Part shown: one piece after another, positions 3,057 to 11,469 of the stretch
How positions within the stretch are numbered: the stretch's first letter is position 1
Layout: each line of letters begins with the position of its first letter
Origin: a virus
Virus record (IMG/VR): IMGVR_UViG_3300042352_000346
Location: 1 to 21,968 of that record
Length of the DNA stretch: 21,968 nucleotides
Reading direction: 5' to 3' (one strand)
The notes under the pieces: model-generated
The model's input: only the letters and a program-made list of their open reading frames with translations
The model's database searches: none
What the model was told of the DNA's origin: nothing
Position numbers and translations under genes: made by a program

Positions 3057-3132
3057 GCAGTCCAATGTTCCAAGGCTGGCGAGAAGGTCTCCAAAACCAT
3101 CTGGCTCGGTTCAATTCCGAGGGGCTGTGCCA
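3057..3132 (+). tRNA. tRNA-Trp-like gene, anticodon CCA
   Basis: A 76-base cloverleaf including an encoded CCA. The acceptor strands GCAGTCC (3057-3063) and GGGCTGT (3122-3128) pair at all seven positions, two of them G-U. The T arm is a perfect 5-bp stem, CTCGG/CCGAG (3105-3109 and 3117-3121), around TTCAATT. The anticodon loop CTCCAAA (3089-3095) is the standard tRNA-Trp loop with anticodon CCA, and the discriminator is G73, as expected for bacterial Trp tRNA. Weak points: the D stem (3066-3069 with 3078-3081) is almost all wobble pairs, position 8 is A instead of the near-universal U, and the anticodon stem has one A-A mismatch. It may be a functional phage tRNA or a decaying copy. Confidence 0.65.
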
Positions 3133-7565: not shown

Positions 7566-7898
7566 ATGCCTGCCATCGGCGTCACCTCCACCTTCCAAGC
7601 CCTCGTCACCCCCGGCTCCGGCACCGTCATCAACGAGGTGACGCAGGATGCCACCCGCGAGGTCAAGACCATCAAGAACGCCTCGGGCGTCACCGTCCAG
7701 GCGGGAGTCCTGCCGATGACCGAGACCAAGATCTCAGTGAAGGGCAAGGGCTCACCGGCCCTCACGCTGGCCGTCGCAGGCACCGCAGGCGTCGGCGTCA
7801 CGATCACGAGCGGCACCGTGGCCATCACCTCGGTCTCCGTGGAAGAGTCCAACGATGACTACCCCGACTTTTCCATCGAAGCCTCCCGCTTGAGCTAA
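7566..7898 (+). CDS. Beta-rich tail protein, paralog A (candidate tail tube or tail decoration)
   Basis: A 110-residue Thr/Val/Ser-rich protein that is clearly related to the next gene. Shared features include a basic REVKxIK segment near residue 35, SVxGxG near residue 58, and a late SVSVEESNDDYPDF block. It sits between the tail terminator and the chaperone region, where lambda encodes the tail tube subunit gpV. A tail tube role is plausible but not shown; gpV-type proteins are usually longer. It starts one base after the mini-protein stop, so translation is probably coupled. Confidence 0.45.
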   Translation: MPAIGVTSTFQALVTPGSGTVINEVTQDATREVKTIKNASGVTVQAGVLPMTETKISVKGKGSPALTLAVAGTAGVGVTITSGTVAITSVSVEESNDDYPDFSIEASRLS

Positions 7899-7918: not shown

Positions 7919-8248
7919 ATGCCAGCCATCACCGCCTCACTCGGCATCTCCTCCTTCACCAGCGGAACCATCTCCAAGGTCACGACCTCCCGCAAGGTCG
8001 AGACCAAGGTGCTCAAGGATCGCACCGGAGCATTTTCTGAAGCCGCGAAGTTCGACCCGACCGGCGAGTTCTCCGTGGACGGCGCGGGCGACTACCCCTC
8101 CATCACGCTAGGCGTGGCCACCCTGAACATCCCCTCCACGATCACCGGCGGGACCATCATCATCGACAGCTACTCCCAGACCGAAAAGAACGACGATTTC
8201 CCGACGTGGAAATACAGCGGGAAGCACTTCCCGAACACGGTGGCCTAG
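7919..8248 (+). CDS. Beta-rich tail protein, paralog B
   Basis: A 109-residue paralog of the preceding gene. Both begin MPAI and share VETKVLK/REVKTIK, SVDGAG/SVKGKG, TLGVA/TLAVA, ITGGT/ITSGT, and KNDDFP/SNDDYP at matching positions, so the pair arose by tandem duplication and then diverged strongly. One copy may be the tube subunit and the other a decoration or terminal ring. The leader before the ATG is A/C-rich (CCAACCGACCACGACC), with no Shine-Dalgarno or TTTGACA. Confidence 0.45.
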   Translation: MPAITASLGISSFTSGTISKVTTSRKVETKVLKDRTGAFSEAAKFDPTGEFSVDGAGDYPSITLGVATLNIPSTITGGTIIIDSYSQTEKNDDFPTWKYSGKHFPNTVA

Positions 8249-8733: not shown

Positions 8734-9120
8734 ATGAGCGAAGAAACACTCAGCGAACGCATCTACGCGGAGGAGCCGGTGATTGCCGGGGTGAGGGTCA
8801 GGCCCTACTCGAACAAAGTGAAGCTCAAGCTGGGCCGCATCCTGCGCTGGCTCGACATCGCCGAGGAGGACCGGAACGAAGAGATCCTCTTTGCCTTTAT
8901 CTACCTGATCGCGGCTCCCATCGAGCGGGTCGCTCTGAACACGCTGAACAAGAACGCCTACCTTGTGGACAAGGACGCCTTCCTGGAGACCCTGACCCCC
9001 GAGGATCTGAAGGCCGGGGCCGACTGGTTCGTGACCGTCACGGGCCTTGAGAAAGAGACCTCGGTCGAGGTGATTCCAAAGCCCTCCTCGGCAAGCTCGG
9101 AGACGACACCCCCAAACTAA
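8734..9120 (+). CDS. Tail assembly chaperone, short form (lambda G-like)
   Basis: A 128-residue mainly helical protein just upstream of the tape measure region. In lambda the same slot holds gpG, which binds the tape measure during tail assembly. Helical segments include SNKVKLKLGRILRWLDIAEEDR-type stretches and EEILFAFIYLIAAP. Its last codons ACA CCC CCA AAC TAA contain a -1 slippery heptamer, so a fraction of ribosomes should continue into the 9117-9350 frame and make a longer G-T-like form of about 205 residues. Sequence identity with gpG is not evident; the assignment rests on place, size and the frameshift signal. Confidence 0.75.
   Translation: MSEETLSERIYAEEPVIAGVRVRPYSNKVKLKLGRILRWLDIAEEDRNEEILFAFIYLIAAPIERVALNTLNKNAYLVDKDAFLETLTPEDLKAGADWFVTVTGLEKETSVEVIPKPSSASSETTPPN
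9111..9117 (+). other. Programmed -1 ribosomal frameshift site CCCAAAC
   Basis: The heptamer reads C CCA AAC in the zero frame, the canonical X XXY YYZ form, directly before the TAA stop. After slipping, the next codon is CTA at 9117, and the new frame runs open to 9350. A strong stem-loop starts 7 bases downstream. Confidence 0.8.
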
Positions 9121-9350
9121 TCGAGCCCCCCTCGTTGGCCTCGCTGATCTTCACGTTGGCCAAGGAGGGGGGCTTTAGCGAATCGGCATTGATGGAGATG
9201 CCTGTCTACCGGGTGAATGCCTACTACCACGCAGCGCTCCGCTCGCACGACTGCTGGACGGTCAAGGAGTCAGCCCCTGCCACTGTCCAGATCGACGACC
9301 TGATGGCCTTTGCCAAGGCCGCAGCGGTTGACATCGAGGAGGAAGAGTGA
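9117..9350 (+). CDS. Frameshift extension of the tail chaperone (lambda T-like part)
   Basis: This 77-residue extension is read only after a -1 shift at 9111-9117 and would fuse to the 128-residue short form. In lambda the gpG-T fusion bridges tape measure and tail tube subunits, and the ratio of the two forms is critical. The frame contains no ATG at its start; the first possible start is a TTG at 9135, which has no Shine-Dalgarno and lies inside the hairpin stem. That argues against independent translation. The sequence includes ALMEMPVYRVNAYYHAALRS-like helical parts and ends in an acidic DIEEEE. Its end carries, within codons for Val-Asp, the TTGACA motif for the next gene. Confidence 0.75.
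   Translation, partial: LIEPPSLASLIFTLAKEGGFSESALMEMPVYRVNAYYHAALRSHDCWTVKESAPATVQIDDLMAFAKAAAVDIEEEE
9124..9174 (+). other. Frameshift-stimulating stem-loop
   Basis: AGCCCCCCTC (9124-9133) pairs perfectly with GAGGGGGGCT (9165-9174). After one G-G mismatch, TTGGCC (9135-9140) pairs with GGCCAA (9158-9163), leaving a 17-base loop. The spacer from the slippery site is 6 nt, in the usual 5-9 nt range. Though followed by TTT, it lies inside an open frame, so I read it as a frameshift stimulator and not as a terminator. Confidence 0.8.
9328..9333 (+). promoter_or_regulatory. TTGACA motif inside coding sequence, 13 nt before GTG at 9347
   Basis: GTTGACA, gap 9334-9346 (13 nt). The motif lies in the last codons of the chaperone extension, and here a GAGGAAGAG run in the gap could also act as a Shine-Dalgarno. 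Confidence 0.6.
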
Positions 9351-9961
9351 GCAAGAACGGCCTGACCATCGACACGAGCAACTTCAACCGGGCCATGAGG
9401 GAGATGGCTCGGCTCTCCGGGGTCAAGTTCGAGGATGTGCTCAAGGCCGAGATCGGGAGCGTGCTCTCGGCCACCATCACCAGAACCAAGAAGGCGACCA
9501 AGGCATCCATCGAGAAGTCCATGTCCATGACCTATGTGGGTGAGAAGAAGTTCGTGAATGCCAAGTGGAGGCTTCCGGATGCCACATGGCAGAAGGTTCA
9601 GGAACGCAGGAAGGAGCTAATCGGTCGCATCGGGACAGCCAAAAAGTCCTGGTATCTGCTGGCCAAGCGGATGGACATCAAGCTTCCAAAGACTCCTCCA
9701 GCCTATGTGGCCGCTGCAACAGTGAACGGCAAGGAACTCACCGAGGAAGTGAGTCACACCCGGAAGGTGAGCGTCGGCAGGGTAGGGTTCCTGATTGAGA
9801 ACTCCACCACGGCGGCGATCCGGGGCGAAGGAAGGGCCGCGCTCTTAAAGGCGATCAACGGCAGGACAGGCTATTTTTACCGGAACATGAAAAAGGGGGT
9901 CTTTGAAAAAGTGGGGGCGATTGCCAAGAAATACCCCGGGATCAAGGTTCGCGGGATCTGA
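9347..9961 (+). CDS. Basic minor tail protein of unknown function
   Basis: A 204-residue strongly basic protein, starting with GTG in a GTGA overlap with the chaperone extension. The start is supported by TTGACA at 13 nt and by GAGGAAGAG just upstream. The N-terminal half is helical (NFNRAMREMARLSGVKFEDV, then RTKKATKASIEKSM), and the C-terminal part has SVGRVGFLIENSTTAAIRGEG and a Lys/Tyr-rich end. The helix-rich front and beta-strand middle are somewhat like HK97 gp10/gpZ-type tail completion proteins, but the gene lies downstream of the chaperone, where those are not usual. Confidence 0.6.
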   Translation: MSKNGLTIDTSNFNRAMREMARLSGVKFEDVLKAEIGSVLSATITRTKKATKASIEKSMSMTYVGEKKFVNAKWRLPDATWQKVQERRKELIGRIGTAKKSWYLLAKRMDIKLPKTPPAYVAAATVNGKELTEEVSHTRKVSVGRVGFLIENSTTAAIRGEGRAALLKAINGRTGYFYRNMKKGVFEKVGAIAKKYPGIKVRGI

Positions 9962-9987: not shown

Positions 9988-11469
9988 ATGGCCAACGAAT
10001 CCCTCCAAGCTAGTTTCGGTCTGGATATTGCACCACTTCAGCAGTCCCTGAGCAGGGCGACCAGTGCCGTCCAGAAGTTCGCGCTCGGATTCGCCGGATA
10101 TATTTCCGTCAAGGCCACGATGGACGAGTTTAAGAAGTCGATCGACCTCGGGGGGCAGTTGGTCGACCTCTCCAACAAGACCGGCATCGGGGCCGGCGCC
10201 CTCTACGATCTCGGAGAGGCGGGGCGAGATGCAGGACTCACCCTTGAGGACATCACCTCCTCGGTGACCAAGATGCAGAAGGGCCTCGGCACATCCGCGA
10301 GTTCCGGTGTGCTCAAGGCCCTCGGCCTCGATCCCCAGGCGCTGGCATCGGCCAAGCCCGAGGTGGCTTTCCAGAAAATCGGTCAGGCCATTTCCAACCT
10401 CCAGAGTCCCACAGAGCAGACTCAGGCAGCGCTCGCCCTGTTCGGTCGTGGTGGAGCGGAGATGCTCAAGCTTTTCAACGACCCGGCATTCAGGAACGGC
10501 ATCGGATCATCGCAAGCGTCCCAGATCCTTGAGAAGAACGCCGCCGTGTTCGACCGGCTGGGTGATTCACTGGGCCGGATCAGGCCCCGGATCACCGAGT
10601 TCTTCAACGGATTCAACTCGGCCAACGCCGCCAACCTCGAGCGCATGGCCGATGCCATCGACCGTCTCGACCTGAGCCAGAAGGGGGTGGATGCCGGATC
10701 GATTGTCGCCACCTTCACCGAGGCATTTGCCCGTGGAAACTTCGGTGAGATCCTCTGGCTCTCCCTGAAGATCGCCGCCGCCGAGTTCACGAACAACATG
10801 ATCGGAGGGGCCTTGGCGATGGGCCGAGCATTGTATGAGACCATCGAACTGATCTTCCGTCCGGAGACTTGGCAGGCATTCGGGAACACGCTCATGAGTT
10901 TTGTGAACTCCTTCAACGCCACCCTTTTACGTGGGATCGGGATGGTCTTGGAGCAGTTAGAGAAAGCCCCTGTAGTCGGCAAATATTTTGCCGGGGCCGC
11001 CGCCTCGGTGAACGGCCTCGGTGACAGGTTCGCCCTCACCTCCGTCAACCAGGGCAACCGCTCCTCGGCCTTGGCCTCCGGTCTCTACGAGGACATCGCC
11101 AAGAAGGTGAAGTCCTTCTTTGATCTCGGGAAGGTCTTCGACACATCCTCCACGCAGTCACAGCTTCAGAGCCTGACAGACTCCATCTACCAGTCCCTGG
11201 AGAAAAGCAACCAGGACGCCCGTGACCGGGCAGATGCTGGAAAGCGGAACAAGGACGGCCTCTTCAACGCCTCGGACATCGGCATGGGTTCCAAGCAGTC
11301 CATCATCGCCGACTCGCTGGCCAAGGTGGGAGGAGGCGGGTTCGCCGTCGGTCCATCGAGCAATCCCATCCTTGAGGAGAACAAGAGGCAGACAGCACTC
11401 CTTCAGCAGATCAACCAAGGCATCGCCAACTCCTTCGGTGGTGCCGCGTTTTCAGCCTCCACCGCCTAG
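9988..11469 (+). CDS. Tail tape measure protein
   Basis: A 493-residue protein placed right after the chaperone block. Tape measure proteins set tail length and leave the tail during DNA injection. The N-terminus (SLQASFGLDIAPLQQSLSRA) and the LSNKTGIGAGALYDLGEAGRDAGLTLEDI-type region followed by LQSPTEQTQAALALFGRGG match the conserved N-terminal domain of phage tail tape measure and minor tail proteins. The middle is helical with long Ala-rich hydrophobic stretches (about 260-290). By the usual rule of about 1.5 angstrom per residue, this short protein would specify a tail of roughly 70-75 nm. That estimate is inference. The TTTGACA motif lies 16 nt upstream. Confidence 0.82.
   Translation: MANESLQASFGLDIAPLQQSLSRATSAVQKFALGFAGYISVKATMDEFKKSIDLGGQLVDLSNKTGIGAGALYDLGEAGRDAGLTLEDITSSVTKMQKGLGTSASSGVLKALGLDPQALASAKPEVAFQKIGQAISNLQSPTEQTQAALALFGRGGAEMLKLFNDPAFRNGIGSSQASQILEKNAAVFDRLGDSLGRIRPRITEFFNGFNSANAANLERMADAIDRLDLSQKGVDAGSIVATFTEAFARGNFGEILWLSLKIAAAEFTNNMIGGALAMGRALYETIELIFRPETWQAFGNTLMSFVNSFNATLLRGIGMVLEQLEKAPVVGKYFAGAAASVNGLGDRFALTSVNQGNRSSALASGLYEDIAKKVKSFFDLGKVFDTSSTQSQLQSLTDSIYQSLEKSNQDARDRADAGKRNKDGLFNASDIGMGSKQSIIADSLAKVGGGGFAVGPSSNPILEENKRQTALLQQINQGIANSFGGAAFSASTA

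Follow-up and report, generated by a model that had tools for sequence, protein, structure and literature searches.

The window is a whole IMG/VR viral record of 21,968 nt. Ahead of its tape measure gene lie two overlapping reading frames, called G and T here, which meet at a slippery heptamer. The features of the window that bear on this junction, together with a tRNA gene further upstream, are as follows.

3057-3132, + strand: gene for tRNA-Trp (anticodon cca), flanked by the packaging genes and the portal gene
8734..9120, + strand: G, zero-frame gene of 128 aa, putative tail assembly chaperone in its short form (an ORF with homologues in viral contigs)
9099..9102, + strand: GGAG, a weak and possible Shine-Dalgarno-like upstream stimulator, of which GGA is conserved
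9111..9117, + strand: slippery heptamer C CCA AAC
9118..9120, + strand: zero-frame stop TAA, the end of ORF 8734-9120
9117..9350, + strand: T, -1 frame extension, 77 codons plus TGA (from -1-frame purifying selection and alignments)
9123..9175, + strand: predicted stimulatory stem-loop (from folding, synonymous recoding and covariation)
9347..9961, + strand: putative tail gene of 204 aa, lying after T (4-nt overlap) and ahead of the tape measure gene
9988..11469, + strand: tape measure gene, product of 493 aa (matches to tail length tape measure families of PHROG, best E 2.2e-6)

We consider it very probable that a -1 programmed ribosomal frameshift at this site yields a 128-aa G and a 205-aa G-T fusion, and that the two products, by position and layout, are tail assembly chaperones. 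Both the slippage itself and the chaperone role are what we infer from the sequence. The initial annotation had placed CCCAAAC in the register C CCA AAC directly before TAA and had described the -1 frame as open to 9350, and both statements are correct, the frame being open over 9051-9350. The site has the X XXY YYZ form in the zero-frame register that is expected of a -1 programmed frameshift. Of the 34 XXXYYYZ heptamers (X and Y being different) on the + strand of the window just one is CCCAAAC, and we estimate that about 0.04 in-register heptamers of this kind would fall by chance in the 70-nt overlap. Conservation among relatives is far stronger evidence than this estimate. Since tandem slippage keeps the zero-frame P-N, the predicted fusion reads ...TTPPN-LIEPPSLASL..., with 205 aa (128 + 77).

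Searching with G as query recovered 9 viral contigs, and the alignment of the T half recovered 29 viral contigs and one Spartobacteria MAG contig (L040). Every one of the 29 related viral contigs has CCCAAAC in register. The zero-frame stop that follows is TAA, TGA or TAG, placed at 0, +3 or +27 nt, and because it varies in both identity and place the conservation of the heptamer is not due to the stop. Nor does codon preference favour the triplets concerned: away from the heptamer, CCA accounts for 19 of 130 Pro codons in G and AAA for 6 of 41 Lys codons in T, so that two otherwise minority codons are both fixed at the heptamer in the 23 distinct sequences with CCCAAAC, these being relatives of shared ancestry whose counts are not independent. 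In L040, which is more distant than the viral contigs, the junction is G GGA AAC TGA. The window is from a freshwater phage, and judging from the homologues its host is probably in Verrucomicrobiota (L040 could be a binning error).

The heptamer is followed by a predicted hairpin. In its lower stem 9124-9133 pairs with 9165-9174 (10 bp, or 11 with a G-U pair 9123/9175), and a G-G mismatch (9134/9164) leads to a further 6 bp (9135-9140 with 9158-9163). The spacer between heptamer and stem is 6 nt, or 5 if the G-U pair is counted. The stem of 10 bp, mismatch and 6 bp, with its 6-nt spacer, had been described accurately, the extra G-U pair being a possible addition. The minimum free energy is -40.3 kcal/mol (z -5.9, with 0 of 200 shuffles as stable), and z is -4.6 when a longer stretch is folded. 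Compared with synonymous recodings, the hairpin was more stable in 22 of 22 distinct sequences (z -0.66 to -5.53), 13 of them at p below 0.05, although the sequences are related and do not make 22 independent tests. When the drawn structure was placed on 21 sequences, 80.5% of its pairs were standard, against 41-57% in slid controls, and the covariation score was equalled by 1 of 500 shuffles. Varied pairs are seen at columns 12-54 (U-G, G-C, U-A or C-G) and 15-51 (C-G or U-A). Two of the other four measures were not clearly above their shuffles, and the upper stem is irregular. An RNA structure thus lies within the 5-9 nt downstream that is expected of a -1 site, is in excess of coding demand and covaries; Rfam gave no match. 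On the upstream side, GGA is found about 8-9 nt 5' of the heptamer in all freshwater-clade sequences and in L040, with a conservation barely above that of synonymous recoding (mean z -0.63, 19 of 23 negative).

More distant homologues carry similar junctions. In the isolated Akkermansia phage Moulinsart (ON453896.1, L041), two hypothetical proteins (WAK79076 and WAK79077) are encoded ahead of the annotated tape measure gene, and A AAA AAC TAG is followed by a hairpin. The T match is weak on its own (27% identity, E 0.9); the kinship is backed by the terminase (30% identity), the gene order and the like junction. We annotate here:

L041 5549-6249, equal to ON453896.1 10632-11332: likely -1 frameshift in Moulinsart, unannotated, joining the two 'hypothetical proteins'

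The tryptic peptide expected across this junction is ETSVEVIPKPSSASSETTPPNLIEPPSLASLIFTLAK. When 387 genomes of L040's phylum were searched with a profile, 11 had a match, the genome of L040 included. In-register heptamers near the junction were GGGAAAC in the genome of L040, AAAAAAC in three places, CCCAAAC in two and AAAAAAG in two. Two homologues are without a clear canonical layout, which counts against the reading: L049 (1486) has GGGAAAC but no long zero-frame ORF before it, and in L051 (1468) the only in-register heptamer is AAACCCT. Tape measure families are encoded downstream of the divergent homologues in the regions tested except in L060, an Akkermansia-type prophage, where a 778-aa protein had no PHROG match while the corresponding protein of Moulinsart carries a tape measure annotation. 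Two of the Verrucomicrobiota genomes hold both halves in one frame:

L058 10384-11028, - strand: single-ORF G + T locus
L059 5251-5955, - strand: single-ORF G + T locus

In genome G235 an ORF of 214 aa holds G (E 2.3e-11) and T (E 2.8e-9) without a frameshift, the E values being those of a search of 8 sequences. In genome G242 the ORF is of 234 aa and has T in its second half, while its first half resembles the zero-frame protein of G139 (34% identity, 87 residues). As the G profile did not detect that G139 protein, we regard the second fusion with less certainty. L058 also has a 260-aa intervening gene at the place that matches window 9347..9961. Single-ORF fusions of G and T are expected if G-T is a real product, and these genomes seem to have lost the frameshift or not yet gained it. 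The frameshift proposed in the initial annotation is supported by the invariant heptamer, selection in the -1 frame (see below), the covarying hairpin and the single-ORF homologues, and the comparison makes it all but certain.

Neither G nor T had a match in PHROGs or Pfam, and comparison of both with phage records and PDB sequences gave nothing usable apart from Moulinsart. A match to cytochrome c555 was taken as chance, as no matched stretch passes alone. Structure models are mainly helical (pLDDT 77 for G and 72 for T); fold searches against PDB and viral structures yielded nothing convincing, with no E value under 0.001 and, in another search, a best Z of 3.8. An uncharacterised protein, A0A6J5S158, was matched by fold with probability 0.99, TM 0.60 and E 0.15. 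With no family match for either half, the designation as tail assembly chaperones rests on position, size and layout. That part of the initial annotation fits, in so far as the pair precedes the tape measure gene, one gene intervening, and the layout predicts a short and a C-terminally extended form from one start (128 and 205 aa); no described family is matched. It is conceivable, if improbable, that the frameshift is real and its products form some other pair of tail or connector proteins, as the want of homology to named chaperone families and the gene separating T from the tape measure gene would allow. Against this, the place before the tape measure gene, the sizes and the layout are those of the chaperone pairs of other phages, and an intervening gene is also found in KL1 and Loki (PMC3483164, PMC5313236). 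The intervening product in the window (204 aa) had no PHROG match.

Counting codons that differ from the window, the zero frame upstream of the heptamer has 123 synonymous and 64 nonsynonymous, indicating purifying selection. Over the 69 nt after the heptamer the synonymous to nonsynonymous counts are 185:70 in the -1 frame, compared with 34:218 and 17:230 in the two remaining frames. Purifying selection past the heptamer acts in the -1 frame only; both frames are coding and overlap at the site, and the pattern of codon substitution passes from one to the other at the heptamer. In alignments of the relatives few stretches are as well conserved as K-L-x-E-P-P at the junction, and this implies that the -1 frame is entered at or before the heptamer. 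A separate T gene with a start inside the -1 frame, at TTG 9135, TTG 9156 or a later codon and perhaps coupled to the stop of G, is accordingly very unlikely. The window does have both TTG codons, and Moulinsart is annotated with two separate genes. However, TTG 9135, the one start that had been named against a frameshift, is found in the window alone and was rejected (the codon is CTN in 19 of 20 other sequences and ACG in one), and in several relatives the first 22 codons include neither ATG nor GTG nor TTG. A separate T would also leave the invariant heptamer and the hairpin unexplained.

Slippage during transcription at the run of C, or a single ORF split by faulty assembly, is very improbable and was rejected: more C does stand before the heptamer (the window has C5 and L027 has C8), but C5 is short for polymerase slippage, the frame relation is alike in 29 independently assembled contigs, the isolated phage Moulinsart has an A6 run and not C, and prophages carry G or A triplets.

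For the ribosomal frameshift we propose the following course. Ribosomes translating G would meet C CCA AAC and, 5-6 nt further on, a stable hairpin; a fraction would slip back by one base, the Pro-tRNA moving from CCA to CCC and the Asn-tRNA from AAC to AAA. Slipped ribosomes would miss the stop and read T to give the 205-aa fusion, while the others would stop and release the 128-aa G. By analogy with lambda gpG/gpGT, the partner of G would be the tape measure protein, and G-T, as the minor form, would bring in the tail tube protein.

The window shares with lambda gpG/gpGT (PMC5009743) a short product and a rarer -1 fusion from one start (both predicted in the window), a slip site near the end of G, a position before the tape measure gene and similar sizes; there is no detectable sequence homology, and the window differs in having C CCA AAC, a strong hairpin close to the stop and a single gene separating T from that of the tape measure. 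Compared by layout, gp18/gp19 of Burkholderia phage KL1 (PMC3483164) has GGGAAAC immediately before TGA, an intervening gene and a predicted -1 fusion, although with a GGG first triplet, larger products (142 and 264 aa) and a Burkholderia host. Likewise by layout, AAAAAAC is found in the tail chaperone pairs of Acinetobacter phage Loki (gp12/gp13, adjoining the stop; PMC5313236) and Caulobacter phage phiCbK (gp93/gp94; PMC3556154), which differ in the AAA first triplet and in host phylum. Moulinsart is a distant homologue with the same order of heptamer, hairpin and downstream tape measure gene, but with AAA as first triplet and with two hypothetical proteins annotated in place of a joined gene. 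In all, XXXAAAC sites in the tail chaperone pair have been reported for KL1, Loki, phiCbK, Colossus and the haloarchaeal viruses HCTV-1 and -2 (PMC5009743, PMC3556154, PMC3483164, PMC5313236), and C_CCA_AAG is named as highly shift-prone in E. coli (review PMC5009743). We found no paper on CCCAAAC in tail chaperone use, in a search that left most subscription literature outside, including the Xu, Hendrix and Duda 2004 survey. The remark in the initial annotation that this heptamer is less common is thus fair for CCCAAAC itself, with the qualification that XXXAAAC sites in this gene pair were already reported. The kind of frameshift is known (lambda G/GT), and the protein family is new, being undescribed in the databases searched. 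These observations provide a likely mechanism and role for a tail gene pair that is blank in the family databases searched, in a group of Verrucomicrobiota phages which includes an isolated Akkermansia phage whose frameshift lacks annotation. The single-ORF homologues offer a natural test of the need for a free short form.

In most homologues the A-site codon is AAC, while the first triplet varies between CCC, GGG and AAA. In E. coli an A-site AAC makes a weaker -1 site than AAG, which speaks against the frameshift. tRNA-Lys(CUU) is not known from E. coli; its pattern was found in 8 of the 11 genomes, and ARAGORN confirmed tRNA-Lys(ctt) at 4 loci. One could speculate that AAC is selected as a dedicated tRNA-Lys(CUU) of the hosts reads AAG, so that a slip site of the E. 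coli type with AAG would work poorly, an explanation we think doubtful. Genomes G216 and G328 have the tRNA-Lys(CUU) pattern and yet use AAAAAAG, so the link is loose and a correlation at best. If it were true, the choice of heptamer in tail chaperone genes would report on the tRNA set of the host. That AAC recurs in the A site, in hosts that have tRNA-Lys(CUU), makes a modest lead which simple reporters could test. A lack of queuosine as the cause of AAC was not supported, as the tgt family is found in 11 of 11 genomes (10 over the cut-off).

Elsewhere in the window, two adjoining small genes on the + strand (7566-7898 and 7919-8248) are paralogues, with 35% identity over 110 aa (E 3e-12), and possibly represent a duplicated tail tube or decoration protein.
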